The notes under the pieces were generated by a model that did no database searches, was not told where the DNA came from, and was given only the letters and a program-made list of their open reading frames with translations. 64,000 nt of DNA from Anastatus disparis (Eukaryota > Arthropoda > Insecta > Hymenoptera > Eupelmidae), in assembly GCA_017163975.1 (NCBI GenBank), contig JAFFSR010000220.1, forward strand, positions 10,868,001 through 10,932,000, written 5' to 3'. Numbering within the stretch: position 1 is the first letter of the stretch; every line of letters starts with the position of its first letter. This document shows, piece after piece, positions 7,801-57,124 of the stretch. The position numbers were made by a program, and so were the translations under genes.

Positions 7801-7961
7801 TTATAAATTTTATCGGTACATACGAAGGTTAACATTCATTCTAATTTAATTAAAAATTGTATCTAATGTCTATTTTTATATTGTCTATTAAGTATAATTT
7901 AAGTTTATAAAAAAAAGGCACTGATGTAACTAAAATTCTATTTTTGCTTTTTAATTTTCAG
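1..7961 (+). other. Intron of cv-c (5' part cut by window edge)
   Basis: No convincing coding exon is seen. The sequence is AT-rich with poly-A/T runs; predicted ORFs are short and low in complexity. It holds a (TA)n tract at 4838-4877 and a Ser/Thr-rich open stretch near 6020-6124 discussed under findings. The missing N-terminal half of the SAM domain should lie further upstream, unless an exon was overlooked here. Confidence 0.6.
4838..4877. repeat. (TA)n microsatellite
   Basis: About 40 bp of alternating TA with a single G interruption, just downstream of a (TC)n stretch near 4807-4820. It lies in the intron. Confidence 0.85.
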
Positions 7962-8140
7962 ATTATCAGTTTCCTATTGACGTAACCGGCGTAGCCAAGG
8001 ATCATCCGTTTCTTGAAGCTGACTCGTTACAAAGCTTATTCCGCAGGCTTCATGCTCTCAATCGTTGTGCTAATATGAAATTGGATACACATCACCATCA
8101 TCATCATCATACGCATCATACTACGAGTCACGGCAAGAGC
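7962..8140 (+). CDS. cv-c: cv-c exon: second half of SAM domain plus His tract
   Basis: The acceptor ...ttttcag ends at 7961 and the donor gtaagt begins at 8141. The first two bases complete a codon from an upstream exon (incoming phase 1), then 59 codons follow. Residues YQFPIDV...HPFLEADSL...LFRRLHALNRCANMKL correspond to the last helices of the SAM domain of DLC proteins (LFPIDI...HDFLDRD...LCRRLNTLNKCAVMKL in DLC1). The exon ends with seven consecutive histidines, then T-H-H, an insect-specific insertion relative to vertebrate DLC1. It is too short for a simple ORF scan. It splices in phase 0 to 43584. The exon for the N-terminal SAM half was searched for in 1-7961 and not seen. Confidence 0.92.
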
Positions 8141-11100
8141 GTAAGTACAATTTTTGCTTTTTTTTCTATACATACATTTATAAAGATATTTTTAAAATTA
8201 AATTGTTTCGTTAAATTTTTTGAATTGATGATATTGAAGGTATGAATATGGAGGTATGATTTAACGATCTAAAAATAAAATATCTTTTTTAATTATAATG
8301 TAGACGTACACCAAAAAAAATAATATTTTATTACAAAATCATCAACTAATATTCACGTTCGCTTCAATAATGAAGCGTCCATACATTATTTATAAATAAA
8401 ACTTGGCTATATATTCAGCTTTAGTCCATATTCATGCCTTCCTTCTTTTTTAATTTTTCTTTCTTATTTTGATGCTTATTTTATCTCGTTAATACCCTAT
8501 ATACAAAATGCATAATACATAACCGACTTAACTCAAAATAAAAAAGAGAAAAAAAGAACAGAAACGAAAAAGATGACTTTTAATTTATTGACTGCACTCG
8601 TCGAACGTTCTTCTTACCCTACTCTCTTACCTTTTTGCCAACTCACATAATTTACGTCTTCACCCTAACTTAAAAGAAACGAAAAAAAAAGGAATAAAGA
8701 GTAAGAACCGTGCATCTCAAAACTTGGAACAGATCAAAATCGACGTGTATATATGTATGCAGGGAAGAGGTATACAACTATAAGAAAAAAAATAAAAGAA
8801 TTTTCCGAGAAAAACTGTCATGTAGAAACGTATAATACTTGTATAATAAGAAGGAACCTTTTGCGGCGACACGTGGCGCCTTTCACGTAATTTTAGCTTT
8901 AATAAAAGGAGTCGGTACACAAGAACGATCGACCTAAAAGACCGATTTTTCTTAAGTTCTTTTTTTTCGTTGCTTCTCTTTTCCCCTTTTAAAGACTTTT
9001 CTCTATATACCAAGTCGGTTTAAACATTAAAGAAAAAAAAAATGAAGAAAAAAGAAGTTTGCTCGCTTAAGCGGTATATAATGAAAAAGGAGCCAAGGAC
9101 GACGGTATATTTTTTTTCACCTTCTTCGTTACTTTAAAAAAAAAATTTGTTAGCACGGGCATTAGAAAAAACATAAACACAGCGATACACGTGTACAAAA
9201 TTTCATTTAGGATTACGGTTCACAACCTTTTTTTCTTTCTTCTCTGTATTAACATAAACTTTATGGAAAATTTATTTAGGATTATAGGACTCTGAAGAAA
9301 AATAATTAGAAAAATCATAACGGTTACATGAAAAAAAAAATTTTCATTTTTTCTAATCATTAAAAATCGATAATCGGAAGAAAAATAAATATTACAATCT
9401 TAACGATACGTAAACGTCAACAGTCGAGCCGAAGAAATTGTACAACGTTAATAAGCCTTCCAAGCTAATACAATGAAAACTGATGATGTCTGGTATAAGA
9501 TACATATGTTCATTACCAATCTAAATGTATTTCCGTTATATAATGTTAAGATAACATAACGGTATTATTGTACACGTATAAGTATATATACTTATAAGTC
9601 AATATAAAGTAATGCATGTCTTCATTCATTAGTTAAACATTTTATTCACGTCGAGCATAAATATTAGAACATTATTCTTTTTTCTTTTTTTTTCTAAAGA
9701 TTATGTAAGTTATTAGTATTTCCTGTTGGCCGTACAATGGAATGTCAATGTAAAATTTTAATTAGTTTATACAAGTTTTATGTAATAACAAACAAAACTC
9801 AGCCAACGCGGATCGTTGTAAGCTTTTTCCTTTTCCTTTTTTTTTCTTTCGAGCTAATGCAAGCATCGATACATAATCGATTGACGTTGTTAAATGCTGA
9901 CTTTCAAACGCTTGAAATTTAATCTGATTTCGATTGTAATGTCGGTTGGGAAATTAAAATTTTTAAAATTTAATATTCATCGTGTGTCATAATAATTATT
10001 GTTTTTTTTTTAGAAAAATCATTGTTATTCTAATGACCAGCTGAAATAGTCGAGGAAATAGTCTAGGAAATAGTTGAAAGAATAATTTGAATTTTTGAAA
10101 TTTCAACATTCTAATGTGCGTTAATGATGCTCCAAACAATACAATTACGTTTTCACAAAGTTTCACTGAAACTTTCAACATGACGTTAATCTCTGTACAT
10201 TTTACTCCAAACAAAAAAAAATTCAAAAACCGTTTTTCAATTGAAGTGAACATTTTCTAAAAAAAAAAATTTCTTTAATATTTCACAATCTATTCTTCAC
10301 ATAATCCAAAAGAAACTCCCGCACCCATCCATTTTAATCCTTTTTTTTAAAACTTTTCATATAACGAATAATGACAAAAGCACGCACAAGACGAGCTTAT
10401 TATGGTCATTGTCATTCATCGTATAAGTCAGTGAAAGTCGCTAAAAACCTTCCACATAATACTACCGGCGATACGCCTTTTATATACGTGCACACGTACA
10501 CACATACGCTCATATGAATGTACTTGCGTAGAATAGCAATTAACGAGACTCACGTGAGCGGAGAGCCTTTAACTCTTACTGGTGTGTACTTCGTATATGT
10601 ATATATGCACATAATTACTGTGTATGGAGTATAGTGCAGGTGTGGTGAGAGATTAGCATTCGCGCGAGTACCCGCAGACCGGACGCGTTTGTAAAAGGGC
10701 GATGCCTTTACTCGTACTCTATAGTCTATTATGTGCTTTTCCGAGAGGAATATCTATATATTTATATACAAAACATTTTGTATTTTCCTTCGTTTAGACC
10801 GATTGTTCTTGTTTTTTTTATGAAATTATTTGCTAAATTTTTGCAATACATACAATTGTAAAAAAAAATTGAAATTTTTTGTAAATTTTCTGTAAACATT
10901 CAAATAAATTTTTATATACTGTAAATTATCTTGATCTTTAATAAACTTATAGTTTTATTTACTATTTTAAATATTGACGTATGTTATATTTAATTGATCA
11001 TAATTTAGAATCACTGTGCTGACAAGCGATTAGAAAATTTCATATATATTAATATGCAAATTTAAATTAAAATGATAACAAATCTAAAAAAAAAATGCAG

Positions 11101-14100: not shown

Positions 14101-17100
14101 TAATGCAAGTGGAATTAGAGAAAGTTTATTTAGAACTTTTAAGACACCTATAATTGTTCTATTAATCTCTTTTAATGGACTTTTTTATTTGCATCCAAAG
14201 AAATTTATAGCGTTAATATATAATTTAACGTTAGCGTATGATAAAATTATTAAAATCGTTTTGTTCTTCGTTCAATTAAATTTAAAATCAACAGTTAACG
14301 CTTTGTAGCGATATCTAAAACCATCACAATAAATAATAAAACATTCGCGAGAGCCTAAAACTTTTTTTTTCATCGATCCAAATTTAATCAACAAGTCGAA
14401 AAAAAGAACTGGTAAGAAATCCATTAATACAAAGATATGAAAAAAATAAAATAAAAATAAAAGATAAAATCAGGGACATAAAATCGAAAGTCCTTTAATA
14501 ATCCGCCATATATTATCTGTTCTAATTTTCACCATCAATAAGGAAATAATATCTCGGCCGGTATTATAAAACACGTCTGCATCAATAAAACTTTTATTAC
14601 CTACAATTATTCTCTCCTCCTCTGAGAAATAAAAGAAAATTATAATATATATTTATCTTACCGAACGGAAATCGATAAGGTTGTTGAAAAAATAAGAATA
14701 TTTTTGTCGATATGATATTTTTATTTTTTTTTATTTTTATTTTTTTCGTCAATTTCACAAAGTTTAAGTTTCACCTGCTCGGCGTTGTTAAATGTTTAAA
14801 AACAAAAAGAAACGAGAAAATAAAGACGAAATTTCATGATCGTTATCCATTTAAAGTGAAAATTCAACGGCTGATCATGAGAAATGAATTCGTAAATTGG
14901 ATGTAACTCAAGAATATGATTATGTTATATGACATGAGACGGTGAATTTCCGAGATGTCACCGTGGATATGTTGAATTGTTGTATTATCGTTAACGTATA
15001 AATGCTTTTGCGTGCTTGTAACACACACTTTTCTGTAATTTATTAAATTAAAAATTTTTTTATGTGCTGATTGTGCAATATTAAAAATTTTAATTTTAAC
15101 TTAAGTTCTTGACTTTTTTTTAATACTGTAAAAAATTGATAATAAAAACTTTTTACCATAAGTTTTTACCACAATAAAATCAATCCATAATCTAACTTAT
15201 CTTTTTCTACTTTAAAAACGTAGGCCTTAAATTATAATAAGTCTTTATTAAGACGTATTTCAAAAGAGGAAAAAATAATGTTATCCTAAAAAAACAAACG
15301 TCTACCTTCTTTTCATGCCCATCAAACAAAACACAACGACCTGAAATGATCAAACTTCATCATTATATGCCCCGTCATTATACATTTAATCTGTCAATTA
15401 CATTTTTAACACACTCCTTTTTTTTTCTTAAACGCCATTTAAATCGCTTGCACAACCGCGAAAAAATAAACCAAAAAAATAAGAAATTCTTGCGCAACTC
15501 TACGCTTGCAGTCTAAAACACAATAAACCACGCGCGCGCACTCGTAAAACAAAATAAAAAAAAAACACCCGAACCATAAAAAAAAAGATGAAACATTACG
15601 TAAATTTATCACCGAAGGTATTTTGAAAAAAAAAGTGCACCGAACTGATCAAGTAGTTAAAAAATTTCACCATACGTATATCGGTTCCTAGAGGAGACTC
15701 GTTCTGAAATTATAATACGGCCGTAGGGGAAGAAATTTCAAGTTGAATTATCTTTTTATTTTTTTCATTGACGACAAGATCAATCGATTGATCGACTGAA
15801 AGTTACTGTTGGAGTATATACTCCAAGTTCTTTTTTTTTTAAAGAAGAGAAGATCTTACGGGTAGCAACGTCAATCGAATAATTTTTTTTTTCTTCTTCG
15901 TTTAATGTTGTCTTTTTTTTGCTTCTTTATAAAAGGAGAAAGGCGGTAGTATGAATTGATACAAGGACCTTTTGGCGTTTTACGTTTTATGAGCATAAAA
16001 TCGAAAGTCGAGGAAAGAAAAGAAGAGAATAAATAAAATGTAGTGCTATAATATTAAGTTGATAATGTTAAAGTTTATTATATTGTTGTGGTAATCAAAA
16101 ATTTGACATTTTCAATTTAATCAATCATTCATTTCATTTCATATAAATATTTATTTCATTTCTTTATTTTGTAGTTTTGTTATTGATATTTACGCTTTAA
16201 ATTAAATTATTTTTAAATAATTTAAATTGAATCAGTTTTAAATAATTTTATTATTTAAAAATAAAATAATTATTTTTAAATAATTTAATTTAAAAATTTA
16301 ATAAAATTTAAATGATTAAAAAAATCGGGTTTGTTCATTGTTTATCTTATGTTTTATATAATCTTAATGTTTTGGTATAAACGTGGTTTTTCTTACAAAA
16401 TAAAGCAATTCGTATACTTCCGTCGACGATAAATTTTCAATAAAAAAAGAAAGAAAAAAAAACGAAATAATTTCGATGGGAAACCATTTTTGGCCTTGAT
16501 TTCGATATATCCGGCCATCTCTCGGTATCTGTCTATAAACGTACACCTTCGGAACTTTGCAAGCCGATACTTTCGTAAGAAATGTCATCCTATGTATGTC
16601 CGCTTAATGAATCCGCCTACATGTATAACCATCGGGAAATTGATGCTCTTTCACTTTGCAAAAAAAGAGAGAAAGAGAGAGAAAAAAAAGATAAAATAAA
16701 TAAAATAATCAGGTCGATATCGTCCTGGTATTTTATTAGGTCAGACTGTTTTTTTTCCTTTTATCTTTGCGATTTTATTCTCAAGGTGTAAAGAGATACA
16801 TATACGCACGAATTTTTTTGTAATTAAGCTCAATGAATTAATTAGATTGATTTTTCGAATTAATTTTTAGGTTGAATAAATGATTTTAATGAGATATCGG
16901 GCTTCTCGTACGTAAATATAAAATTCTTCATTTTCTCTTTCTTTCCCTTTTTTTTATTTCTATATCGCCAAAAATGTACGTAAAAATGTTAATGGTGCAT
17001 CAATTTAATTTAAATTTAATTAATTACACCCGCGCGTGTGACACAGTTTTCGAATTTTAAAATTATGCATTAACTTTCGATTTTCATTATTTTTCTTTTT

Positions 17101-42900: not shown

Positions 42901-45900
42901 TTTTTCTTTTCGTTTCTTCAATCGTTCGCACGTATATACACATATATGCAAGATATAGTTGGTTCTCCGTGCTTGAGTGGTTTTCCCATGTAAGCATGAG
43001 TCATGGAGCGGACGTGGAACGAAAGAAAAACGAAAAGCGAAAATGCGAGAGCTTCGGTTTGCTTGGGTGTCACCATGTGAAATCTTAAAGAATATAAAAG
43101 AACGATTTCACTCCGGATGTGTATGTGTGTGTATCGTAATGCATTTCTTTAGGTATAGGATACACGTTGATTTGTTCACGTGTTACTTTATTTCATGAAT
43201 AGCTAGAATTTTTTAAATATTTGGGTGTATTTGACTATTTAAGTTTTCATATGACGCGTACGAAAACTTAAGTGTATTTAATTATTTTCGAAGGAAAATT
43301 GCATCATACCTTAAACGATTCTTTTATTACATTGAGTAATCCAAATATTCTGACTTTCTTAGTTTACATGACAGTAATAAAACATTTATATACATAAGTT
43401 GATGAAATCTTTAAAACTCTAAAAAACTATTAAGAGTGTAGTAATATTTTAATAAGCATCAAAATTAGAATAATTTTTTTCTTTTACTAAAAATTATTAT
43501 TAAATTTACGATTTATAACTTAATTTATTATAAAGTTTTTTAAGTAACATATTTTAATAACAATATTATTATTTGTGTTTCAGGGAGGAGGTGGTAATAC
43601 CGGTGGCGACGATTCTGACGAAGATACCCAGTGTGCGCTAAGCGAGAACTGGACATTCGAAAAGAAAACGCGTCGCTGGTCACGTGTTTGTGATATAACA
43701 CCTGGTAACGTTGAGCGTCTTCAAGCAATCGCTGGTCAAAATCGTGCTCCTGGTAGCACAGAAGACGACAGTCTGGACGACCGACTAGAACAAGAAGAAG
43801 CAGAAGATACGATGTTGGATACATTACGTTACCGTAGTTTACCACCAGGTCCATTACCTGACGATTTAGGACCACGCTTTCGACGTACTGGTTCTGAACG
43901 TTTACGCGATGGCGCCAAAGCTTTTCTTCGACGTATGGAATCATTGAAATCACGTAGGAGGAAACATCATCACAATCGTGATGGTGTCGTTATAAGTGGT
44001 CCACAAGTTTTAGATGTTTTGTCTATGCAACAAAAGATGAAAGATTTAAATTGCGTTGATGTATCACCGACTGAAGGCTCACCACCAATTTCATTTGCCG
44101 ATCTCTTGCCACCATCACCATTACAACTGCCACCTTCACCGCTTACATTACCCGCATCGCCTTATCACTTGCCACCGTCACCATTGGCCAATACTGCCAG
44201 TCCATTTGGTGATGACTCATCGAGTTATTGTTCAGATGGTTCACAAGGTGGTGGCCCAACACCTACACCTACAAAGACTAAAATAAATAAGGCTAGAAGG
44301 TTTTTACATCGGGGAGCACGCGAGGATCAAGGTGCTCTTAGCGACTCTGAATGTCAACCCACAAGTTGGAGACATCGATACTTCAAAGACGCCAATAGCA
44401 ATAATGCTAAGGTAAATTATTTATGATTTAAATTACTTTTTTAAAACATTTCTTCCTAATTTATAAAAAAAAAAACAAATACCAATTTTAATTGTTATTG
44501 TAAAAAAATTTTATGCGATTCGAAATTTTTAAATTTCAAATTTTATAATCAGGTCTTAGAGTTCGTTACATCGAGTCCTAAGGATTCACCATTGAAAACA
44601 AGCGTGATAAATAGCGCAGCAATTAGCACACGTGGTGGAAGTTTAAATCTAGGCAAAGAATCCCAGCGTTACCGTGACAAATTTTCTACGAGTAGTATGA
44701 AGGAGGACAAAGTTACCGCATTAAAACGCGAAGAAAAGTTCCATAAAAGCTTCCGTCATCATCGAAGCAGCGAGCGTAGCACAGACGAGCCAATCCGTAC
44801 GGAAAAAGTTGTAACAAAAGAAGTAACAGTTTACCGCGCAGATAAAACATCAACAAGGATAAGACATCATATTGCTGTTAACGAAACAACAGCAGGTAGC
44901 CAAGAAAGTAGTTCAACAGTAGCAAGTCGTGATTCTGATCAAGAAGAAGATTCACCGCGTCATAAAGGCAACGTCGTTAGGTGGCATAGTTTCCAACGTG
45001 GTTCGCTTTATCCTGAACCATTAGATCCATTATGCCCAAGGGCAATGGCATCAATGTCTTGCGGACAATTGTTAGTGCTAAGGAAATTAGCTTTACTTAA
45101 ACTTACCGCTTGTATGGAACGTTATTGTCCAACTCATCGTACTGGATGGAATTGGGAGCTACCTAAATTTATCAGAAAAATCAAAACACCTGATTATAAG
45201 GATAAAACTGTCTTTGGTGTACCATTATTATTATCATTACAAAGAACTGGTCAAGCACTACCTAAATGCATTCAAATCGCTTTGAGGTGGTTAAGAGCTA
45301 ATGCTTTAGATCAAGTTGGCATCTTTAGGAAGAGCGGCGTAAGATCACGTATACAAAAATTAAAAGCAATGACTGAAACCCAAGGTGATAATATCAATTT
45401 CGACGGACAACAGGCTTTCGACGTAGCCGATTTGGTCAAACAATACTTTAGGGAATTGCCCGAAGCTTTGCTTACCAATAAATTGTCCGAAACATTCATC
45501 GCTATTTTTCAACGTAAGTAAATACCATAGTTTTAAAGATAAGTTTGAAAAAGAAAAATTTCAATTAAAACTTCTTATGTTGCATTATTTGTAATCGTTG
45601 AATATAATAAGAATTGATCAATTGATAATATCTTATGTTCTTCAATAAAAGAAACAAAAATCGCGCTTAAAGGTCAATGCAGCATTAAAAATAATGATTC
45701 AACATTTCTTTCCCTTTTACAGATGTACCAGGTGATCTTCGTCCCGATGCAGTTCAATGTGTCTTACTCTTACTACCAGATGAGCATCGCGAGGCTTTGG
45801 AAACTTTGCTTGACTTTTTAAATCACGTTGCAAGCAATTCACCATACAATCAAATGACAGCATCGAATCTTGCTGTCTGTTTAGCACCAAGTCTATTCCA

Positions 45901-48900
45901 TTTTAATCATAGTCAAGCAAACGTGTCAAGTAACAGGTCAAATAGTGTATCACCGAGGCGTAGAAAAACAGTTGGTATACCGGATCAACGTGAGTTATCT
46001 GAGAACAAAGCAGCCCACGACTGTCTTCTATACCTTATTAAGACGCATCGTGAGCTGTTTATGGTGAGTCTCCTTATACCTTTACCTCCCCTCTTGCTCT
46101 TTTTCTCTTTCTCTCTCTCTTTTTCTTTCTCCTTTTACTTATATACTCTCCTAAGTAAAGAGAAACGAGTTCGAACAATGCGGAAGCGTTAAAAGGACGA
46201 GAGAGAGAAATATTTTTGCATCGATTTCTTTTGCGACTGAGGGAGATTTCTATCGGTGTATATACGCGGTTCTTTTCGTATGTGAAAGAGAAAGAGAGAT
46301 ACAAAGAGAGAAAGAAAGAAAGAGATTACATTGCGGCGAAATCAGCGTGTACAGAATGGTTGAATGTATCGAAGGAGACGAGTTTTCCTTCTTTCTTCTT
46401 TTCTTTTCTTTCTTTTTTTTTTCTTCTTTGCACCTTTTTTTGCGGCTTGAGAAAGTTTCGTATCGGGCTTCTGGTTGCTTCGTTGTTCCTTGTTATGTAT
46501 TTTGAAATGCTTACAAATGTATATATAGTTGTTTGTCGCGCGATTTAAAGATACATTTCAAGTAGTTTTATGCAATGTATATTATTTTATAATACGTGTT
46601 GTGGCTTAACGTCGGGGAATAAAAAAAAAGTATTTAATTGACAAAAGCTTTGATGATCATCAATGAAAAGAAGAGAAAAGAAACGAACTGGTTTTGTCGT
46701 ATAGAAAATCAATACAGTTCGCGATAATTAATAATACTCGTTTTAATTTTATAAAAACTGGTTCTATTAGCTTTATAATATTTTATTAATTTATTTTAGC
46801 AATTCAAATGAATATTTTCAAAATTATCATTTTACATTTCAAACTTTTATTTGCTTCTCATAATATGAAACGCTTGTTCGTTTATTTGAAAAAAAAGTAA
46901 AAAAAAAAAATAATCGTTGAAATAATGTGTTTACCCTACACGAAGCTTAACGATACGAAGCTTTTTATTTGATGCGTTGTTTATTGAGTTTAACATATTT
47001 TATAATGTGTCTCAGGTATCGTCGGACATGCTGACGCAGTGCCACTTCAATTACATGGAAGAAAGCATTCCTGTCCCGTTGGAAGAGCTTGGATCAGAAC
47101 TCAAACAGGATTGGAGGGGATACTTGTATGCTTGTACTACGGCACTTCTTAAGGAAGGTCGTGAAAAGTAAGGAAAAACAACTTATTTTTTTTTATTTTT
47201 TGATAAAAGAAATTATCTACACTTCAAATATTATTTTATTCTTTTACACGAAGAGTCGTTTCATTAAAACTTATTTATTTTATGTTCAAATACAAAAATG
47301 AAAAAAACATCTTTACTAAAAATTAACTTAATTCATCAACATCAGAACTGGATCAATCCAAATGAAATTCATTCTTTCAATAATAACAAGTTGAAATGAG
47401 ATCATTGTCATTGGATTTCTTAATTAAATTGTAAGAGAAAAAGATAATTACGATACATCTTTTTTATCAACACCTCATTAACTGTGCAAACACATGGCCC
47501 CAAAATAATACTGTACTCATCGATCATAATTACATTTTGATCGCCCCTCCTTTAAAATTTTAAAAATTCATCTTATTTCCTTAAAAGAAGAAAAAAAGGA
47601 AATTACACGTTTTCACTTTTTGTTTTTAAAAAAGTAGGTTAAATGTGATAATATCTTATATTTATTTTTCGTTCTTCAAAAATTTTTGTTCAGGAGCCGT
47701 GGTTGGGTATCAGTTAATAATCCAGCAGATTCAAACGTTGATATGGCGTACAAAAAAGTCGGCGATGGTCACCCATTACGTTTATGGCGCGTTACAACTG
47801 AAGTCGAAGCACCGCCCGAAGAATTGTTACATCGTGTATTGCGTGAACGACACATATGGGATCCACAACTTCTTAAATACAGACAGGTGGCTAAGCTTGA
47901 TACTAACGCTGAGGTATTTCAATATGCTACTGGCAATATGAGCCCACTACCAGCACGTGATTATTGTGTACTCAGGTTAGTAGTTGCATATTTTATAACT
48001 AGATCGATTTACATTTATTATGTAGACAAGATTTTTTTTACGTATCAAACATGAAAAAGTTGATTAAATTTTTTTATTTTAGTTTTTACAATTTTTTTAA
48101 AAATTAATAGGTTTTTATTGTTGATAGTTTTTATAATTTCTGTCGTACATAATTATTGTTATAAAATAAATAAGTTTAATTTTCATTAAATATTTAATAT
48201 TTATAATCCTTAATATTGCAAAAAGTTAAATTAAAATCAATATTTGTTTTACATGCCAGTGATTACTGTGTCCTCAGGTATACAACATAATTTATTACTA
48301 AAAAATTTCTTATTTGTAGATTACAATAAAATTCTTAAAGTAATGAAATGTAAATAAATAATAAAAAAAGCAAATAATTGTGAAATAACAATGAATCAAT
48401 TTTCAAGATTAAAATAAATCGTGAAAATAATTTTATTTAAACATGCGAGCGTTGTTTCACAATTAGAAAGAGAAAAATTGATCTCAATCAGTGCACATTG
48501 TACATATAACTCACGTTGTAATTCAATGAATATTGCGGCATGTTGTAAAACCTATCATATAAATAAAATCTTTGTTTGTTAATTTCGTAGGTGTTGAGAA
48601 TAATTTTATTATGTTATTGACTCTCTTTGTCAATATGAAATATCAAAATACACATAAATTAACAAAACGAATGTACAAATGATTATTTCAAATTACAATA
48701 ACAGTTAGAAATTTGTAATTTAATGACAAATAAAACGTCATTGAAAAAATCACTTTTTTACTTTACAATAATAAATTCAATAAAAACACGTAGTTCCTTA
48801 TATACCCGTCAACAATACTTTTAAAAAAATCGCAATTGAAAACTGAAGAGAAAAAAAACAAACGTTAATATGATTTTGTTTTCTTTTTAGATCATGGCAA

Positions 48901-49838
48901 ACTGATTTACCGAAGAAGGCATGTGTCATAGTCGAGACGTCGGTTGAACATCCGGATGCGCCAGTAATGCTTGGTGGTACGCGCGGTATCGTATTAGCTT
49001 CGCGATATCTCATCGAGCATTGCGGAAGCGGAAAATCACGCATCATGCATCTATCTAGAGTCGACACTAAGTGAGTAATGCAATTTTTACTTTTTTTCTT
49101 CTTTTTTATTGCTATCTGTTCTGCAGTTATCTACTGGCCGTGATGTCAGCGAAGTATAAAAAAGGGTTTATGAAAAGTAACTTATCAGCATTACCTTTAT
49201 AAAACGTATAATTTTAATAAAACTTTATCAATTTTATTTTAAGAAATATTATAACAGTTACTTTAAAATTTAAAAATAGTTTCTAACGTAATCTTTGAAC
49301 ATAATTTTGATTAATTAACATAATTTTTTAACATGATTTTGATTTAGTTATGTAAAATTTAAACAATACAATAAAATTGTTTAAGCATGAAAAAATATGG
49401 ATCCTTTCTACTTAACGTAAAATTTAATAATCAGATAATCTTCTTAAGTTATCAACTCGTGATTCAATCGCGATATATTTTGTTAATTAAAAGTCTCAAA
49501 GTTAGAGTAGTTTAATTCAAACGTTAATTAAAACAATATTAATGAAATTTTTTTAAATCATTATGCCTATTAAACTTCAACGAAATTTCATTAATTAGTA
49601 CTTTCATAATCGGATCAGTTATAAATTTTAATCATTTATTAAAACGTAAATATTTATTAATTAATAATAATTTTTACTTGCATAAAAAATTTGTAAAAAA
49701 CGAATTCCTAATCTTTTTTTCAGGGGTCGTACACCCGAATGGTACAACAAGAGTTACGGTCACATAGCGGCGTTACATCTAAGCAAAATACGCAGTTCAT
49801 TCAAGCATACAACCGATGGTCCAGAAAGCAAAGTCTGA
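7962..49838 (+). CDS. cv-c: Rho GTPase-activating protein with SAM, RhoGAP and START domains (crossveinless-c / DLC family), 5'-partial
   Basis: Spliced coding region of eight visible exons: 7962-8140, 43584-44411, 44553-45513, 45723-46063, 47016-47167, 47694-47975, 48891-49070 and 49724-49838. All have GT-AG borders and compatible phases, giving 1012 residues without a stop. Order in the visible protein: end of a SAM domain (1-45), His-rich stretch, DLC-type linker (61-540) with the conserved DSDED...RWSR block, basic segment (KFIRKIK) before RhoGAP (about 556-765), then START (about 780-1005). The family stimulates GTP hydrolysis on Rho at focal adhesions, cell junctions and the basal membrane and acts in epithelial morphogenesis; START is a presumed lipid-binding fold. 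The arginine finger is present (GIFRKSG, codon 45327-45329). The start codon and first half of SAM lie upstream of the window. Identity is firm from domain order and motif-level resemblance to DLC1; the exact ligand is unknown. Confidence 0.95.
11454..12092. mobile_element. MITE-like element with 13-bp perfect terminal inverted repeats, TTAA-flanked
   Basis: Left end GGTGGCTCAAGCG (11454-11466); the right end is its exact reverse complement (12080-12092). TTAA occurs immediately outside both ends (11450-11453 and 12093-12096), consistent with a 4-bp target duplication as in piggyBac-like transposons, although TA with a slightly longer repeat is also possible. The 639-bp interior has no transposase; the 89-codon open frame at 11695-11964 is not recognisable. 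Non-autonomous. Confidence 0.7.
13319..13369. other. Two adjacent perfect short hairpins
   Basis: CGGAAGC (13319-13325) pairs with GCTTCCG (13333-13339) around a 7-nt loop. Directly after, TAATTGC (13344-13350) pairs with GCAATTA (13363-13369). Paired hairpins within 51 bp could be a structured RNA or chance; no known family is recognised. Confidence 0.3.
18863..18920. repeat. (TA)n microsatellite, about 58 bp
   Basis: An uninterrupted alternating TA tract in the giant intron, the longest complete dinucleotide run in the window and a likely polymorphic locus. Confidence 0.9.
20252..20452 (-). mobile_element. tRNA-derived SINE, copy 1 (full length)
   Basis: Read on the minus strand, it starts with a tRNA-like head. 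The pol III A box TGGCTCATTCGG maps to 20432-20443 and the B box GAGTTCGAATCCC to 20388-20400, with a CGT anticodon-like loop (TTCGTAA) between them. A roughly 110-bp non-tRNA body follows and ends ATAGCGACGTTAAAA in an A-tail (20252-20260). Two relatives occur at 35841-36035 and 62992-63110. The acceptor and T stems do not pair properly, so this is not a functional tRNA. The loop suggests a tRNA-Thr-like ancestor. Confidence 0.85.
35841..36035 (-). mobile_element. tRNA-derived SINE, copy 2 (full length)
   Basis: The same family and orientation as copy 1, with divergent bases throughout. The A box matches at 36016-36027 and the B box at 35972-35984. The CGT anticodon-like loop is kept. The 3' end again reads ATAGCGACGTTAG followed by an A-rich tail (35841-35850). 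Boundaries are approximate; no clear target duplication could be assigned. Confidence 0.85.
38288..38311. repeat. (AT)n microsatellite
   Basis: About 24 bp of alternating AT in the giant intron. Confidence 0.8.
38399..38430. repeat. (GAT)n/(GTT)n trinucleotide repeat
   Basis: A GATGATGACGAT... repeat passes into GTTGTTGT. It is intronic and has no coding frame with support. Confidence 0.7.
42750..42786. repeat. (AG)n microsatellite
   Basis: A GA-repeat tract interrupted by AAAC, in the relatively GC-richer part of the intron about 800 bp before the exon at 43584. GA repeats of this kind are also common in insect promoters (GAF-type sites), but no promoter is demonstrated. Confidence 0.75.
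43584..44411 (+). CDS. cv-c: cv-c exon: DLC linker with conserved WTF/RWSR block and LPPSP heptad repeats
   Basis: Acceptor tttcag at 43578-43583; donor gtaaat at 44412; 276 codons, phase 0 on both sides. The exon opens with a Gly-rich turn and DSDEDTQCALSENWTF...RRWSR, the DLC-family motif directly after SAM. Then follow SERLRDGAKAFLRRMESL and ISGPQVLDVLSMQQKMKDLNCVDVSP, both also DLC-family motifs. Residues 235-269 form imperfect seven-residue repeats (LPPSPLQ, LPPSPLT, LPASPYH, LPPSPLA, NTASPFG), offering several Ser-Pro phosphorylation and proline-motif sites. In vertebrates this linker binds focal-adhesion partners; that function is inferred here. Confidence 0.95.
44106..44210 (+). repeat. 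cv-c: 21-bp coding repeat (LPPSPLx heptads) in the cv-c linker
   Basis: Five successive seven-codon units: LPPSPLQ, LPPSPLT, LPASPYH, LPPSPLA and a degenerate NTASPFG. The codons differ between units (CCA/CCT/CCG, TCA/TCG), so the repeat is old and kept at protein level. Each unit has a Ser-Pro site. Confidence 0.85.
44553..45513 (+). CDS. cv-c: cv-c exon: linker end, polybasic segment and first half of RhoGAP
   Basis: Acceptor ataatcag at 44545-44552; donor gtaagt at 45514; 320 codons plus one base (phase 1 out). The first half is a charged Ser/Thr-rich linker, followed by the family motif VRWHSFQRGSL. Next comes the strongly conserved LRKLALLKLTACMERYCP and GWNWELPKFIRKIK. In DLC1 the basic stretch before RhoGAP binds PI(4,5)P2; conservation suggests the same here. 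RhoGAP begins at VFGVPLLL (residue 556). The catalytic arginine finger is R595 in GIFRKSGV (AGG at 45327-45329). QYFRELPEALLTNKLSETF is the typical RhoGAP B-box region. Confidence 0.96.
45723..46063 (+). CDS. cv-c: cv-c exon: second half of RhoGAP
   Basis: Acceptor cccttttacag at 45712-45722; donor gtgagt at 46064. Two bases complete a His codon, then 113 codons in phase 0. It carries the RhoGAP motifs LLLLPDEHREALETLLDFL and NQMTASNLAVCLAPSLF; the NxxNLAxVxAP-type segment shapes the Rho-binding face. A basic Ser-rich loop (SNRSNSVSPRRRKTVG) follows, as in DLC1. The open frame continues 129 nt past the donor, but that sequence is Phe/Ser low complexity and not homologous. Confidence 0.95.
47016..47167 (+). 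CDS. cv-c: cv-c exon: START domain, N-terminal part
   Basis: Acceptor tgtgtctcag at 47006-47015; donor gtaagg at 47168; 50 codons plus two bases. The encoded segment (SSDMLTQCHFNYMEES...ELGSELKQDWRGYL...LLKEGREK) matches the start of the DLC START domain, where an acidic helix and the LFKEVKEKFKGWV motif begin the lipid-binding fold. The split Lys codon joins in frame to 47694. Confidence 0.93.
47694..47975 (+). CDS. cv-c: cv-c exon: START domain, central part
   Basis: Acceptor tttgttcag at 47685-47693; donor gttagt at 47976. It encodes SRGWVSVNNP...AYKKVGDGHPLRLWR...ERHIWDPQLL...SPLPARDYCVL, the strands and omega loops of the DLC START fold. The last two bases (AG) give Arg with the next exon. 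The final 18 nt (47958-47975) are nearly repeated in the following intron at 48260-48277 with intact splice signals. Confidence 0.94.
48260..48277 (+). CDS. cv-c: Candidate 18-nt cassette microexon of cv-c (duplicated START strand)
   Basis: The sequence TGATTACTGTGTCCTCAG is preceded by a pyrimidine-rich acceptor (tttgttttacatgccag) and followed by donor gtatac. It matches 16 of 18 bases of the end of the previous exon (TGATTATTGTGTACTCAG, 47958-47975). Inclusion between 47975 and 48891 keeps frame and adds Ser-Asp-Tyr-Cys-Val-Leu, so RDYCVL is followed by SDYCVL. Both base differences fall at third codon positions (TAT/TAC, GTA/GTC) and are silent. Use in transcripts is inferred; it could instead be a dead duplication. 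Confidence 0.5.
48891..49070 (+). CDS. cv-c: cv-c exon: START domain, C-terminal part
   Basis: Acceptor ttctttttag at 48881-48890; donor gtgagt at 49071; in frame with 47975 through a split Arg codon. It encodes RSWQTDLPKKACVIVETSVEH..., then RGIVLASRYLIEHCGSGKS...LSRVDT, matching the vertebrate DLC START segment (RTWRTNLPKGAC... and SRYLIEPCGPGKS). It leaves phase 2 to 49724. Confidence 0.95.
49724..49838 (+). CDS. cv-c: cv-c last exon: end of START domain and stop TGA
   Basis: Acceptor ttttttcag at 49715-49723. A split Lys codon, then GRTPEWYNKSYGHIAALHLSKIRSSF (DLC1: GHMPEWYTKSFGHLCAAEVVKIRDSF) forms the long C-terminal START helix. The protein ends HTTDGPESKV with TGA at 49836-49838. The last four residues ESKV fit a class I PDZ-ligand pattern (S-x-hydrophobic), a possible docking tail; this is motif matching only. 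The reading frame stays open beyond the stop. Confidence 0.93.
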
Positions 49839-50024
49839 GATAAGTCTACCGCGCAGCAGTCAGTGCTGCGCGGTATATTGCAGGAACAACAGCAGCAACA
49901 GCAACCTAAGCAACAAGCAACTGTCATTGCAGCTGCAGTTGCCACGGCTATTGATCAAATGAGCGAATGTCAACCGAGCTTACAAGATCCAAGATTTTTA
50001 CGTCCGCCACCGAGCGATCATTAA
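49839..50024 (+). CDS. cv-c: Candidate readthrough extension of cv-c (61 codons then TAA)
   Basis: Downstream of TGA 49836 the same frame is open for 61 codons to TAA 50022-50024. The composition is protein-like and far less AT-rich than the surrounding UTR and introns: DKSTAQQSVLRGILQE, a run of six glutamines, an Ala-rich helix (ATVIAAAVATAI) and a proline-rich end (LRPPPSDH). No splice acceptor starts it independently. It is best explained as translated by readthrough, or as recently lost coding sequence. Hymenoptera studied so far lack selenoproteins, so selenocysteine is unlikely. Confidence 0.5.
   Translation, partial: DKSTAQQSVLRGILQEQQQQQQPKQQATVIAAAVATAIDQMSECQPSLQDPRFLRPPPSDH
49847..49875 (+). 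promoter_or_regulatory. Stem-loop 8 nt after the cv-c stop codon (possible readthrough stimulator)
   Basis: TACCGCGCAGCA (49847-49858) and TGCTGCGCGGTA (49864-49875) form a perfect 12-bp stem around the loop GTCAG. Eight bases separate it from TGA. The stem is GC-rich in a very AT-rich setting. A stable stem about 8 nt downstream of UGA is the known architecture of readthrough-stimulating RNA elements (several RNA viruses; an extended stem-loop also acts in Drosophila headcase). The function here is inferred. Confidence 0.55.
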
Positions 50025-52829
50025 AAAAAGAAATATATTTATATGATATAAATATAATCGATCCAATTTACATGATAAAATTAATTCCAGTGCCTCCAGA
50101 TTAAATACTCGAGAAAAGACTTTTTTTGAGAAAAAAAAGAGAATGAGAGAAAGAAAATAAAGAAAGAATAGGAGGTTTCTTTATCTTTCAAACGAGAGAA
50201 AAAGAAAATATATTCGCATATGTATACTCGTTTGTATTTGTCGGGTATATATTGTAATCCGATCGTAATACTGTAAATACGAGAGAAATCCTTAAATTTT
50301 TGTTACCCCCCTTTTTATCCCTATATATATCAATATCGATTTAATACAATTGTATAATTCTGTATTAATGATTGTGTATCCGATGATATGTGTCGTGAGT
50401 GTTTTACCTTAATTCTTATTTTTTACCGAGATGTTTTTCTTTTTATTTTTTTTTCGTTCGGACCAAATGTCGTTTTTTTTTGTTCGTTTATTTTTTATTA
50501 TATATTATATCGCTATTATAACGATTAACGATGTATAGAATATATATTTTAAGATGAAAAAATATGTAATCTCTGTATTTTAATACGCACAAGAGGAAAA
50601 AAAAGTATAATGAAGTCGAAAATTAAAGTAAACGTATATTGAACGTACGAGTACGTTTAAATTAAATGTCAATGCGAATGACTTTTTCGCAGAGTTTCAA
50701 GTTATAAATGCGTGTAGCTGAAAACGTTGATAAAGATATTTTTCTTTGGAGAAAAAAATAACAAAAAAATTTTTATGAGAGACGCTGCGCGTACGAAAAT
50801 AAAATAATGTAATAAAGAGAGAAAGTAAAGATGGAAAAATGAACGTCAAACGTATATTTTTCAAATGAAAATTTAAAAAAAAAAAATAAAGATGTAAGTT
50901 TCGAAAGAAACGTTACGATTATTGAAAAACTAAGCTTTTAAAGCTGTAAATGCGATACCTGAATTACACAATGTAGCGTATAGACAATTTTTTTTTCTTT
51001 CCTAATTGTTCCCGAAAGGATTTTACGTTTATTCGAAAAACTTTATATCCTTAAATTTTAAGAAGCGCACCTTCCTTCTTTTTTATGCAATCAAACAAAA
51101 AAAAATGCGTGAATTAATAAAATAAAGAAAAAAAAAATAATAATTTAGCCTTCATTTTGAAGTGCAAATCGATGCGCAAACCAAAAAAACCAAAATCTGT
51201 AAAAGATAACTATGAATAATTTGTGAATATAAAATTGTTCAAAAAATCGTTCCATTAGTTTCGTGTTTAGTGGATGTCTTAAATTAAATTTAAAAAAATA
51301 AAATAAAAAAAACACATAAATGTTGATTGATTGAACGAGTGTCTATTTATAATAAAAAAATGTGTCCTCCATGTGTTCGAAGTTGTTAATTGTCACTTGT
51401 TCTCAGATTCGCAAATAAGTATAAAAAAAAATAAATAAATAATAAAAAAATGTACTACGTGGGACCAGGTTAATGTGGCCCAGGACCCTTATGTGTATAT
51501 AAAATAAAATAAAACTTAATAAATCGCGTCGATGAAGAAGAAAAAAAAGAAAGAAAAAAATGAATGAATTTTAATTGTAATCTGAAGAAATGACTTGGAA
51601 AAAAAAAATTTGTTAAATGGATTGTCGATGTATTTTAACATAATGCTAGTCAAAGTTACACTTTAGTTATAAGGAGGTGCGCGCACGTGAAAAAAATAAT
51701 AATTATTATAATAATGGATTATTAACAAAAAAAATAAAATAAATAAATACAAGAGCGCGTCACTGACACAATAATAAATGTGTAGATTCATATTCCAAGA
51801 TGTTTATTATGTAAAGATAAAAAATCTATATTAAAAAAATAATGATATACCGACATATTTAAATATTATATCGAGAGAGAGAATAAAGCGAGAGAGAGAG
51901 GAAGTGAGAGAAAGAGAGAGAGTTTTGAATAAAAAAAGCGAGAATATGGAAGTGAAAAGGCGTTTTTAAATATAAAATGAAGTTTTAACGACAAAATGAT
52001 ATATTTTTGTGTCTAAAGAGCCAGTAGATATGCGGGAATGAGAAAGCGAAGAAATTATTACCGATGTATCACTGTTGAGTTGTATATATGTACATTATAA
52101 TACAATGAATGACGAATATATACATATATATTCTCTAAAAAAATATATATATTTTTTTTATTTTTTTCCATTTCCGCTATCAATAATTTTTATATATTAC
52201 ATTTATTTTAACTCATTACATTTATTTGAAACTTTATTTTATAATTCTATTTTGTAGCGGGATTATACCCGTAATTATAAAATACAAAAATATTACAAAA
52301 ATAAAATAAAATAATTCTATATTATTTATTAACTCTAGAATTAGAAAAATAAAAAATTTAACAAATATTAATTTCTGTAATTATATTATTTTAAAAATAG
52401 TATATCAAATGAAAAGTTTTATTAATTAAAAGATACCTTGTATTAGGTACGATTTTTAAAAATGAAAAAACAAATTGTCATACTTTTTTTTAATAAGCAT
52501 TAATCTTAGCATTAACATATATTTTGAATTTCCTAAAGTAAATTTTATTAAAGTTCTTTTTAATCGTTTGATTCTCTAATTCAGTTGGACATTCATAAAT
52601 TACTATAAATACGTTTGGGTATCGGACGATCGTTTGATCGATAGAACGGTTGCCAAAGCGATATTAGTCACATGTGTTTTTAATTTCTCGAAGTTCGCCA
52701 TACAATATTAGTTTTACTGTTGTCTAAACGTAAACACAAACCTTAAAAAAAGATAGGTTATCATTAACAATATAACTTTTCTGCAAGATTAAAAATTTTA
52801 TAATTCATACAAAATATAAATAAATAAAT
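50025..52829 (+). other. cv-c 3' untranslated region and intergenic DNA
   Basis: No coding sequence is recognised. Many AATAAA-like signals (for example near 50154, 50811, 50885 and the cluster 51500-51525) make the cleavage site uncertain. A GC-rich imperfect hairpin (GGGACC...GGACCC, about 51462-51489) sits just before the last cluster. A GA-rich tract lies at 51872-51925. The end of the 3' UTR may be around 51.5-52 kb. The region from about 52600 is the presumed CFAP298 promoter. Confidence 0.5.
52649..52662 (+). promoter_or_regulatory. Candidate RFX X-box upstream of CFAP298
   Basis: GTTGCC-AA-AGCGAT fits the X-box pattern RYYNYY-N(1-3)-RRNRAC at 11 of 12 positions (the last base is T instead of C). 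It ends 167 bp before the CFAP298 ATG. RFX factors drive ciliary genes from X-boxes within a few hundred bases of the start, and CFAP298 is a ciliary gene, so motif and context agree. A palindromic E-box (CACATGTG) follows 7 bp later. Not proven. Confidence 0.45.
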
Positions 52830-52968: not shown

Positions 52969-55425
52969 GTAAGATTATACTTCACTTATTCACAATAAAA
53001 TATAAACATAATGCTCACACAAAAAACACCTTTTTAAAAGCTAAAAAGTAGTGAAAAATTTCTCTTTTTAGCTTTAAAGTTTTAAATAAATAAATTGATA
53101 AATACGTTAATGTTTATAGTAACTATTAATTAACAATTATTTTATTAATAATAATAAAAATAGATCTCGAAGATTTGGCTGAGCATGGTACAATGTTACC
53201 ACCAAATATGCAAGGTTTAACAGACGAACAAATTACTGAATTACATTTGAAAGATGAGTGGGGTGATAAGTGTATACCTAGCGGTGGATGGACCTTTGTT
53301 AAAGATATTATGGGTAATATAATCTAATAGTTTTTTATTTCATTATGTTTAAAGTAGAATTGTATTATTTAAAAAAAGTTCAGTATAGCTACGTTTGATA
53401 TTAAAGTGAAAGAGAAAAATTGAATAGGTTGAGAATCAAATAGCTTTTATTTGTATTTATTATAGGTCGTAGAAATGGCAAACAGCCTAAAGAAGAAATG
53501 CAAAATGTTATAAAAAAGGCAATAGAAGACGCACGTGCAATGATATCAAAGGTAAAAAAAGTATTTATGTTGTCGGCGCACATATTTTAGTTAACCCTTT
53601 TGAGTATCCATTATGAAAAGAATATAAATAGTCAAAACAATCAATTTCACATATCGTTAAATCGTTGATCGAATTTTTCGAATCTAAGAATTTTTATATT
53701 ATCTAATATTCGTTCATTATGAGATTAATATAATGTTAATGAAGTATAGTAATAATTAATTTCAAAACAAGATTTCTAAATCTTTTTGATAGATCTTAAA
53801 AATGATCACTCATATTTGCTTTCTTTGTGACTGCAAGTTATTTACATAAGTACACAAAGAAAAATTTGTTAAAATTGCATTTTCTAACGAATTGTCAAAA
53901 ATTCTTTAAACGTATGTTCATTAAATAATATATTTAAATGAACTTATATGTTTTACTAATATTTTTCGGATTCAATAAGCTTCGATTAAGTATGTTATCA
54001 TGTGTTGTAATTTTATAAGTAACACACATTTGTATACATTTTTTTGATCATTTATTAACATGCGATCAACCATCTTAAGAGGCGGTCGGAACCAAATCGG
54101 TGACTTAGTTCGATACTTGTAATAAATGCTTATAATAATTTATTCATTTATTAATATGGTGAAAATATAGTCATTTCCTCTAGTCATGTATATAAAAAAT
54201 AATTTAAAATAGTTAAAGCCACAAAAATATACAAAATATTGTTATAAAGCGAAAAATGCCACCTAACAATCGACACGACAGTTTTTTGCATGCGGTATAT
54301 GTCAAGTCGGTTTGATATTTGTAATAAATGCTTATAATAATTAATTTACTTGTTCATATGGTAAAAATATAGTCATTTCCTCTAGTCATGTATATAAAGA
54401 ATAATTTGAAATAGTTTAAGCCATAAAAATATATAAAATATTATCGTAAAGCGAAAAATGCTGACTTGATATATACCGCAAGTTACCGATTTGGTTCTGA
54501 CCGCCTCTTAAAGTCTATCCTATTCCAATTATGTTATATACGCTTCAAATACATTTTAATAGAAACGAACAAATAATGAGAAACATTGATTTTTAATTAT
54601 TTTTTAACTTTACCTTTGGATAAGAGCAATAATTTATAATTCGATTTTTTATATGTTTTAAATAACTGTATAGATCTCACATGTTATATTTAAATATTGA
54701 ATCTGATACTAATCTCGTAAACATCCAGTTTGAGAGAAATGTTTATTTTGAAACTGATACAAATACTAATATAACAAATTTTCATCTTTAGAAATTAATT
54801 GATCAAGATATACTAGTTACTCAAAAAGTTGTACAAGATGCTCTTGATGTTCTTCGAGGTGCTGTAATGATAGTTTATCCGATGGGTTTACCACCCCATG
54901 ATGTTATCCGTCTTGAATTTGAAAATAATGAAGATCTTAGTGGTACGCACGCTTCTCTTGAGGTAATAATAAGTTATTTTTTTAAAAAACAATGTAATAA
55001 TTAGAGACAATTCATTTTATTTAATTTTTGTATTTGATATTTAATCTTCTTATTAATTATATAAGTAAATCCGTTTCCTCGGATGGATTCCTAAATTTAA
55101 TTAAAATCTTTAATATTATTATTTTTTATTTTTTTTAAGATACAATATACTTAAAATTCAAATAAATATTTGTTTAAAATAAATCTAAAAAAATTAAACA
55201 AAATTCCAGGTCGTAGAATTGGAAATGGCCCAGTTATGGTTTTCAGGCAAAGAATTGTTACGTGGAATGAAACTAAAGGATTTTGTTGGCAAAAATGAAA
55301 AAACTAAAATAGTCGTTAAATTATCAAAAAGAGGATCAACAGCACCTACGCGTGAGCCAGTTATGTCAGACGAGGATCGTAAGCAACTCATGTTGCAGGC
55401 TTACAGGCGCCAAGAAGAAATAAAG
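52830..55425 (+). CDS. CFAP298: Cilia- and flagella-associated protein 298 (C21orf59/Kurly), 3'-partial
   Basis: Five exons: 52830-52968, 53164-53313, 53466-53551, 54792-54962 and 55210-55425. They join in frame for 254 codons, starting MVRLHVKRQTESLFL, the conserved family N-terminus. Further family blocks are GRLKVSRLC, LAEHGTMLPPNMQGLTDEQI, DEWGDKC.PSGGW, GRRNGKQP, RGAVMIVYPMGLPPHD, EFENNEDLSGTHASL and FVGKNEKTKIV. The protein is about 290 residues in vertebrates and acts in the cytoplasm to assemble outer dynein arms and in planar polarity of cilia. In insects motile cilia are limited to sperm flagella and chordotonal neurons. The final ~37 residues (D-rich YLNSxWAD tail) are not seen before 64000. 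It lies in the same direction as cv-c. Confidence 0.94.
53164..53313 (+). CDS. CFAP298: CFAP298 exon 2
   Basis: Acceptor aaatag at 53158-53163; donor gtaata at 53314. It encodes DLEDLAEHGTMLPPNMQGL and DEWGDKCIPSGGWTF, among the best conserved parts of the family. Confidence 0.94.
53466..53551 (+). CDS. CFAP298: CFAP298 exon 3
   Basis: Acceptor tattatag at 53458-53465; donor gtaaaa at 53552. It encodes GRRNGKQPKEEMQNVIKKAI and continues as a charged helix, ending in phase 0. Confidence 0.92.
54079..54507. mobile_element. TTAA-flanked inverted-repeat element with internal duplication (MITE-like)
   Basis: Terminal inverted repeats of 28 bp (54079-54106 and 54480-54507, two mismatches) begin GAGGCGGTC. 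TTAA sits outside both ends (54075-54078, 54508-54511). Inside, a 148-bp unit occurs twice in direct orientation (54112-54259 and 54314-54461). The second copy is bracketed by a 17-bp inverted repeat, GCGGTATATGTCAAGTC (54292-54308) versus 54463-54479, one mismatch. No transposase is present. The TTAA target suits piggyBac-type or Sola3-type elements; family uncertain. It lies in CFAP298 intron 3. Confidence 0.8.
54792..54962 (+). CDS. CFAP298: CFAP298 exon 4
   Basis: Acceptor catctttag at 54783-54791; donor gtaata at 54963; 57 codons. It encodes KKLIDQD...VTQKVVQDALD and the signature RGAVMIVYPMGLPPHDVIR. Confidence 0.94.
55210..55425 (+). CDS. CFAP298: CFAP298 exon 5 (last one visible)
   Basis: Acceptor aaattccag at 55201-55209; donor gtaagt at 55426; 72 codons. 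It encodes EMAQLWFSGKELLRGMKL, FVGKNEKTKIVVKL and MSDEDRKQLMLQAYRRQEE, aligning to about residue 253 of the human protein. The strong donor shows that another exon must follow. Confidence 0.93.
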
Positions 55426-57124
55426 GTAAGTGCTTTTGTATTATGATTACCTTCATTGTCGACTGATCGTTAACAAATTTCTTTCTTATCGACAATCGAT
55501 AAAATATTTTCCTATGAATTTGATTCTATAATTTATATATCCCCAATCGTTATTATAGTTTAGTTTTGTATCTTTGAAAAATGCTATTTATTTATAAAAA
55601 TTTTAAACTTAAATATCAATGATTACTACGTTATATTACCTGCTGTTAGGAATGAACCAAGGTAAGTGGTTTCAATTTCTGTGGTCTTTAGAAAATAAAA
55701 GTGGAAATGTCGAAATTGGAAAATGAGATAAATTAACGAATAAATTAATAGTATCCATTGCAGATATCTATTATAAAAATATGTTTTAAGAAAGATAATA
55801 TTTATATTACAATTTGATTCAACCATAATTTAATTATTTTCAAAATAAAAGACTCCAGTAAAATTTTAGTTAACGTCATAGAATTTTTTTTTCGATCCAA
55901 TTAAACTAGTTTCCTCAAATTTCTTTTCCGAGAGTATTGATCCAACCACTTTCTACGGAGGGTATATAATCCACTTTACGGAAATAATGTATTTTCCAAA
56001 TTTTCAGAAAAATCGAAAATTAATTTCTTCCCACTTAAGCTAAAGACAACTATTATTAGAATTCTTTTCCTTGTTTTTTAAAATTCAAAATTAACCCATT
56101 TCTAACCCAATGAAAATTTAATTTGTACGATAAATAAGTCATTATAGATCCAAATCAGCCATCTGTACTCTTTGAAGAAACAGTATAACATAACAAAGTA
56201 CAAAAGAATACGTTAATTTAATTAATTATTGATTCATTTATTCCATTTGTAGCTATAGAAACATCATTATTAAGGTAAGAGATTAAAGTAAGTACATGTA
56301 TTGGCTATATCCAATTAAAATATCGATTTATTTATTTAAGTCAAAAGTATTAAGCTAATCCTATAGATATACAAGATAGTGAGATTGACGAGGAATTTAA
56401 ATTTGTTTTATTATTTTTAATCTCTACTTCAATCTTTTTTATTAATCTTAATTATTTCATAATTGTAATGATTGATTATTAATCATATTATTGATGAATT
56501 ATTACAATTAAGTGGCAACATAATTACATCATTGTAATGAAAATGTACAGTATCAATCTAACAAAGCTATGCATGCTTTGTTTGTTATTGTATTAATATT
56601 GCGTCTCTCTGTGCAACCGACTGTATATTCTACATTTTGTATTATAATTACATTTCTAGCTATCATATTTTGTTAATTAGTTAAACAAATCTAAATAGAT
56701 GAAAACAAAATATAAAGAAATTCTAATTTACAATATATTATTTAGAAATTTTTAAAATAAATTTTAAAATTCATTTAAAAATAATAATATAAAAGTTAAA
56801 AATTGAATTCTCAACCGGTTGCGTCAGTTATTTACGCTTGTCGAGACAAAGCCCTTACGGGCACTAGTTGCATTACCTAGTTTACTTGACTTCTTCGTTC
56901 ATTCGTTCGTTCACGTGACGCAAGGTGTGTTAGTATGTATGCTTGATCATTTTCAACAGACCCAGTTACTAAGTAGTTAACGATCCCCTTTAATACAACA
57001 TTTAGTTCCAATGTCATTAAAAAGCAATTCTTTGCTGGTTGTTAAATTGACAAACCCATTAGTTTATTAGAGAAAATTTTGAATTATTTAGATCAATTTT
57101 AAAATGTTAAAAAATTAAAACGAT

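Follow-up and report, generated by a model that had tools for sequence, protein, structure and literature searches.

Predicted stop-codon readthrough beside a stable stem-loop in the crossveinless-c/DLC RhoGAP gene of Anastatus disparis

Does the first stop codon of a crossveinless-c (cv-c)/DLC gene end every protein that the gene makes? The question is raised by the wasp Anastatus disparis, in which the 3′ half of this RhoGAP-START gene lies on the + strand of the window analysed here, a stretch of 64,000 nucleotides (assembly GCA_017163975.1, contig JAFFSR010000220.1, positions 10,868,001 to 10,932,000 of the forward strand; coordinates below are those of the window). Exon assembly and homology place the end of the gene at TGA 49836-49838; past it the frame stays open, and a GC-rich hairpin follows closely. 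From these features a first-pass annotation, made from the sequence alone, had proposed that some ribosomes make a C-terminally extended cv-c protein. Our analysis favours this proposal: with a probability of about 0.8, a fraction of ribosomes reads through the TGA, and a longer cv-c/DLC protein is predicted. The features concerned are as follows.

43584-44411, 44553-45513, 45723-46063, 47016-47167, 47694-47975, 48891-49070 and 49724 onward, + strand: exons joined in frame (exon assembly)
49724..49835, + strand: last coding exon, which completes the START domain and encodes the conserved ...GPESKV C-terminus with the class-I PDZ ligand S-K-V (assembly, Pfam, homologues)
49836..49838, + strand: TGA in the context GTC-TGA-G, the canonical stop and, judged from homologue C-termini at the same position from amphioxus to wasps, the ancestral one
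49839..49846, + strand: spacer GATAAGTC, 8 nt from stop to stem (sequence)
49847..49875, + strand: perfect 12-bp GC-rich stem with a 5-nt loop (sequence, folding, null models)
49839..50021, + strand: in-frame extension of 61 codons, rich in Gln, Ala and Pro; of the three frames, only this one shows coding-like usage (codon score; single genome match; no Pfam match)
50022..50024, + strand: TAA, the second stop; composition drops to the level of an untranslated region (UTR) just upstream (sequence, GC change point)

The assembled protein carries the domains by which cv-c/DLC proteins are recognized, RhoGAP (Pfam, 4.1e-39) followed by a C-terminal START domain (3.7e-35). Its best homologues among the matches listed were DLC-type proteins, the closest being a protein of the chalcid wasp Phymastichus coffea with 97% identity over 77% of the 275-residue query region. 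The last exon reads ...HTTDGPESKV and is followed directly by the TGA; a C-terminal [ST]-x-V is a class-I PDZ ligand. C-termini were counted in the 120 homologues listed out of 802 proteins found. An E[ST]xV end at the position of the TGA was present in 114 of these 120 (83 ESKV, 16 ETKV, 12 ESNV, and one each of ESQV, ETSV and ESRV), and the amphioxus homologue has the same kind of C-terminus, ETKV. The other six (P0023, P0072, P0075, P0087, P0103 and P0117) have different C-termini, and in none of the 120 does the C-terminus contain the wasp extension. Because 114 of the 120 end there in E[ST]xV, the TGA is, on this comparison of homologous proteins, the ancestral stop of the gene and is neither premature nor the mark of a pseudogene. 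The first-pass annotation was therefore right to place it at the family-typical C-terminus.

Between the TGA and the TAA we found the 61 in-frame codons, rich in Gln, Ala and Pro, that had been described previously. At the local stop density the chance of such openness alone is P ~0.009-0.010, and frame 1 is likewise open for 41 codons; the length of the extension is therefore weak evidence. Codon usage was scored as log-odds per codon, using a model trained on the gene's other exons versus the non-coding DNA of the window. Frame 0 scored +0.374, frame 1 -0.054 and frame 2 -0.131, and the frame-0 score was still +0.374 when the seven codons of EQQQQQQ were left out. This score was reached by none of 7941 non-coding 183-mers of the window, which overlap and are thus not independent, and by none of 95 with a GC content of at least 0.42. 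GC content at the three codon positions was 0.67/0.43/0.39 in the extension vs 0.53/0.45/0.32 in the exons. The GC change point falls at 50016, adjoining the second stop, which agrees with the earlier statement that the base composition between the two stops is not that of a UTR.

A wider null set was taken from 264 kb, i.e. the window plus 20 stretches of the same contig, with 35,994 stop triplets on both strands. Scoring was confined to the 611 of these that are followed by 61 or more open codons, a cut-off taken from the present case. The coding score of the TGA was reached by one of them, the TGA itself. By this single-genome codon score, the sequence between the two stops is open and has a coding signature in frame 0. 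The last exon with the extension, and the extension alone, had one match each in the genome (939,413,245 bases in 399 contigs; the DNA search skips very common words). The extension had no Pfam match. In a search for relatives elsewhere, a scan of bacterial contigs gave eight stretches that fit a search pattern, none of which encodes a relative, and a scan of viruses gave none.

The hairpin is exceptional and correctly placed for a readthrough signal. Its two arms, 49847-49858 and 49864-49875, pair without mismatch over 12 bp, 8 of them G-C, and three further pairs form on the outside in some folds (49843-49845 with 49877-49879). The description of a perfect 12-bp GC-rich hairpin 8 nt past the TGA is thus accurate, and the locus has a stable stem within the ~6-9 nt after a stop at which stem-loop readthrough signals lie. 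In a list of all perfect stems of at least 10 bp with loops of 3-10 nt in the 64 kb, every other place has at most 4 G-C pairs. The hairpin also gave the lowest 45-nt minimum free energy (MFE) among 12,791 window positions sampled every 5 nt. Among the 611 scored stops a 45-nt MFE of -24.2 or lower was found at this TGA alone, and no other stop had -18 or lower. The stability of the hairpin was equalled by none of 2000 random synonymous recodings, none of 2000 swaps of synonymous codons made within the extension and none of 5000 permutations of codon order. Because no protein-preserving recoding or swap matches its stability, the stem is not explained by the encoded peptide. In predicted folds of the spliced mRNA, its mean pair probability was 0.99 in all four context sizes. 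Dinucleotide shuffling of 100 nt was the weakest control (z -2.68, with 2 of 200 shuffles as stable). The stem arm has two further matches with two mismatches in the window. A mobile-element origin of the hairpin was considered and rejected, given the single genome matches described above.

Published work on readthrough provides a context for this arrangement. In a review of viral readthrough, stimulatory structures typically start ~8 nt past the stop (PMC3542737), as the first-pass annotation had stated. In the Drosophila gene drifter/vvl (dfr), readthrough in S2 cells and larvae is reported to be controlled by the stem-loop, by how stable it is and by how far it lies from the stop; the stem sequence was not decisive, and the stop together with the next six bases also counted (PMC13170385). 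Readthrough is described as abundant in most insects tested (PMC5100048), and 851 candidates, of which at least 306 were estimated to be functional, are reported for the bumblebee (PMC7826183). A single copy of the 8-mer CAGCAGCA, for which enrichment in readthrough regions is reported (PMC5100048), lies here, 54 nt from the first base of the TGA. Fly readthrough tails tend to disorder, with Pro and Gln among the enriched residues (PMC4999894). Among the main texts of an open library, no paper was found on readthrough of cv-c (crossveinless-c) or on readthrough of a RhoGAP with a PDZ ligand; four papers that mention both stop-codon readthrough and a PDZ-binding motif deal, to judge by their titles, with other topics. 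'cv-c' is absent from the main texts of PMC5100048 and PMC3840789.

By its anatomy, the locus is best read as a case of stem-loop-stimulated programmed readthrough resembling that of dfr and headcase (hdc) in Drosophila. Headcase is a different gene, reportedly with another stop context and a tail much longer than the wasp extension. Readthrough of this insect mRNA is cited as requiring the stem-loop, which is also sufficient for it (Steneberg and Samakovlis 2001, as cited in PMC8417969 and PMC5100048), in agreement with the first-pass annotation. Like the wasp gene, dfr is an insect gene with a proximal stem-loop just past the stop and a long in-frame tail (PMC13170385, PMC8417969); however, it has UAG-C and a longer, bulged stem (+9 to +59), whereas the wasp gene has UGA-G and a short, perfect 12-bp stem, and its readthrough is proven by experiment, whereas that of wasp cv-c is predicted from sequence. 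Type II viral signals, as in alphaviruses and coltiviruses, share the UGA and a stem starting ~8 nt downstream, but in the viruses the UGA is followed by CGG or CUA and the stem is often extended (PMC3542737), and in the wasp gene GAU follows. Candidates found with PhyloCSF in bumblebee, flies and mosquitoes are likewise insect genes, Hymenoptera included, with a coding signal past the stop; they came from multi-species alignments, in contrast to the single-genome tests used here (PMC7826183, PMC5100048). Wasp cv-c/DLC is probably a further insect gene with stem-loop readthrough, the mechanism itself being already known.

Several points weigh against readthrough. The stop context is UGA-G, and UGA-C is leakier. 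Training of the coding model used a single gene, cv-c/DLC itself, and may favour it. Two protein searches, in a set of 5.8 billion proteins, found no homologue of the extension with E ≤10; this missing match is weak evidence because annotation stops at the TGA. The criteria of PMC13170385 (a stem-loop of at least 35 nt, a loop of 3-10 nt and bulges of at most 2 nt, in folds of 60 and 80 nt) were applied with a parser re-implemented here. In the 60- and 80-nt folds the hairpin covers 29 nt, below the 35-nt minimum, and it covers 37 nt, with a loop of 5 nt, in the 45- and 100-nt folds alone. The 35-nt limit was passed by 356 of 3788 non-coding 60-mers of the window, and none of the 3788 was as stable as the hairpin. 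Stem-loops are also common in flies, in which 1012 genes satisfied the 60-nt criteria of that study (PMC13170385). In Apis mellifera and Tribolium readthrough was not abundant by the single-genome test of PMC5100048, and several fly stem-loop candidates did not give high readthrough in yeast (PMC5100048). The proposal of an extended cv-c protein is thus upheld in part: the tests on this one genome speak for translation of the extension and for a stem maintained because of its structure, but the UGA-G context is not the leakiest and neither of the two protein searches found a record that bears the extension.

Among the other explanations, ordinary termination survives best. The hairpin would then be a regulatory element of a 3′ UTR, e.g. 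a protein- or microRNA-binding element, and the frame would be open by chance. Such openness is expected at P ~0.01, frame 1 also stays open over 41 codons, the 100-nt shuffles gave a z of only -2.68, and the protein searches revealed no homologous extension. However, the coding-like codon usage is confined to frame 0 and has no equal among the other 610 stops scored in the 264 kb, the composition shifts beside the second stop, and the sole Rfam match in 49500-50600 is on the opposite strand and far under the gathering score. We consider ordinary termination unlikely.

Alternative splicing would require the following feature.

49833..49883, + strand: possible intron of 51 nt (GT...AG), in frame, whose excision would take out the TGA and the hairpin; weak donor (splice-site check)

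Removal of this intron from some transcripts would fuse ...PESK to EQQQQ.... The boundaries GT...TTGCAG are present and the length is divisible by 3, so that the frame would be kept. However, the donor AAA/GTCTGA (exon/intron) matches the general donor consensus at 3 of 7 positions, compared with 5-6 among the six donors of the gene, and the stem would sit within the intron. A length of 51 nt is very short for an intron. We regard this event as very unlikely. With a loose filter, 12 frame-keeping GT/GC-AG pairs were found in the last exon, the best donor, of the GC type, matching 4 of 7 positions. Alternative acceptors for the donors of the last three upstream exons were also tried and rejected: there is no in-frame acceptor before 49963. 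In-frame AGs exist for earlier exons, but their use would delete the START domain.

Slighter still is the chance of A-to-I editing, by which UGA would become UGG (Trp) in part of the transcripts. A strong double-stranded element is close by. When the mRNA is folded in four contexts, U and G of the stop codon are predicted to pair in a short upstream hairpin, leaving the adjacent A unpaired, and editing was judged somewhat likelier because of this unpaired A. However, the hairpin that holds the U and G is only a few bp long, and the best long-range partner on the intron side, at -23.6 kcal/mol, does not stand out against eight control pieces of exon, whose best partners gave -21.1 to -38.5. The partner of the stop region on the 3′ side also gave -23.6 kcal/mol, the controls covering the intron side only. 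Selenocysteine insertion, although a UGA with a downstream stem would suit it, is negligible as an explanation: the genome has no selenocysteine tRNA (tRNA-Sec) above cut-off in a search whose named controls are all prokaryotes, the nine sub-threshold matches came from 53 scored of 39,886 candidates, the eight of these given as loci are all tRNA-Ser, and Nasonia and Apis are reported to be without selenoproteins (PMC2500217). A recent stop gain, offered earlier as an alternative in which the extension was the normal C-terminus until lately, would account for its coding-like look but is rejected with the same firmness because the TGA sits at the ancestral C-terminus, at which 114 of the 120 listed homologues stop with E[ST]xV and none has the extension.

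Other observations concern the rest of the gene and the window. The gene model covers the 3′ part of cv-c/DLC; for the N-terminal SAM domain one upstream open reading frame was checked (7955-8242), and it had no Pfam match. An 18-nt element at 48260-48277, in the intron that follows exon 47694-47975, repeats the last bases of that exon (47958-47975) at 16 of 18 positions. It is flanked by AG and GT and could be an in-frame microexon adding SDYCVL to the START domain; a pattern search for the resulting doubled motif gave 0 of the 120 listed homologues. Also on the + strand, downstream of cv-c/DLC, an open frame at 55198-55443 has a CFAP298 domain (Pfam, 6.7e-28), and the adjoining open frame at 54792-55001 had no Pfam match. 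Perfect inverted repeats of up to 15 bp, composed of A/T only, are clustered at 16202-16297.

How might readthrough at the cv-c/DLC stop proceed? Most ribosomes would stop at the TGA and release the conserved protein, whose -PESKV end is a class-I PDZ ligand. In the remainder, the stable stem may slow or hinder termination, and a near-cognate tRNA would decode the UGA; a distance of 8 nt past the stop corresponds approximately to the mRNA entry side of the terminating ribosome. Translation of 61 more codons to the TAA would then add a low-complexity, probably disordered tail. The long form would have no free -SKV end and no PDZ partner, and would constitute a scaffold-free pool of the RhoGAP. 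The ancestral stop, the open coding-like frame and the well-placed stem are observed; readthrough itself is probable, and its rate, any regulation of it and the masking of the PDZ ligand are inferred.

Because the canonical C-terminus is a class-I PDZ ligand, readthrough would bury the docking end of the protein. Cv-c is described as carrying a C-terminal PDZ ligand motif (PMC5854602), and Scribble and SNX27 are reported to bind human DLC3 through its C-terminal PDZ ligand (PMC11253157). The importance of the ligand in insects is unproven, because scribble mutants still have Cv-c at the membrane and the C-terminal half of Cv-c fails to localise (PMC5854602), findings that do not favour a role for burial. 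Mammalian AQP4ex is a loose precedent: its readthrough tail also follows a C-terminal PDZ ligand (SSV) and alters membrane anchoring, but there the extended form promotes anchoring, and the gene is unrelated (PMC6444679). Tentatively, the stem-loop may act as a PDZ-ligand switch, setting the share of the DLC RhoGAP whose ancient -[ST]xV end is buried and, in certain tissues or at certain stages, relocating Rho inactivation to sites away from PDZ scaffolds.

If readthrough is real, cv-c/DLC would add a Rho regulator to the insect genes with stem-loop-driven readthrough, and would do so with a simple and strong signal, a perfect 12-bp stem 8 nt past the stop. The concrete outcome that it suggests is the covering of a PDZ docking end common to this family from amphioxus through insects.

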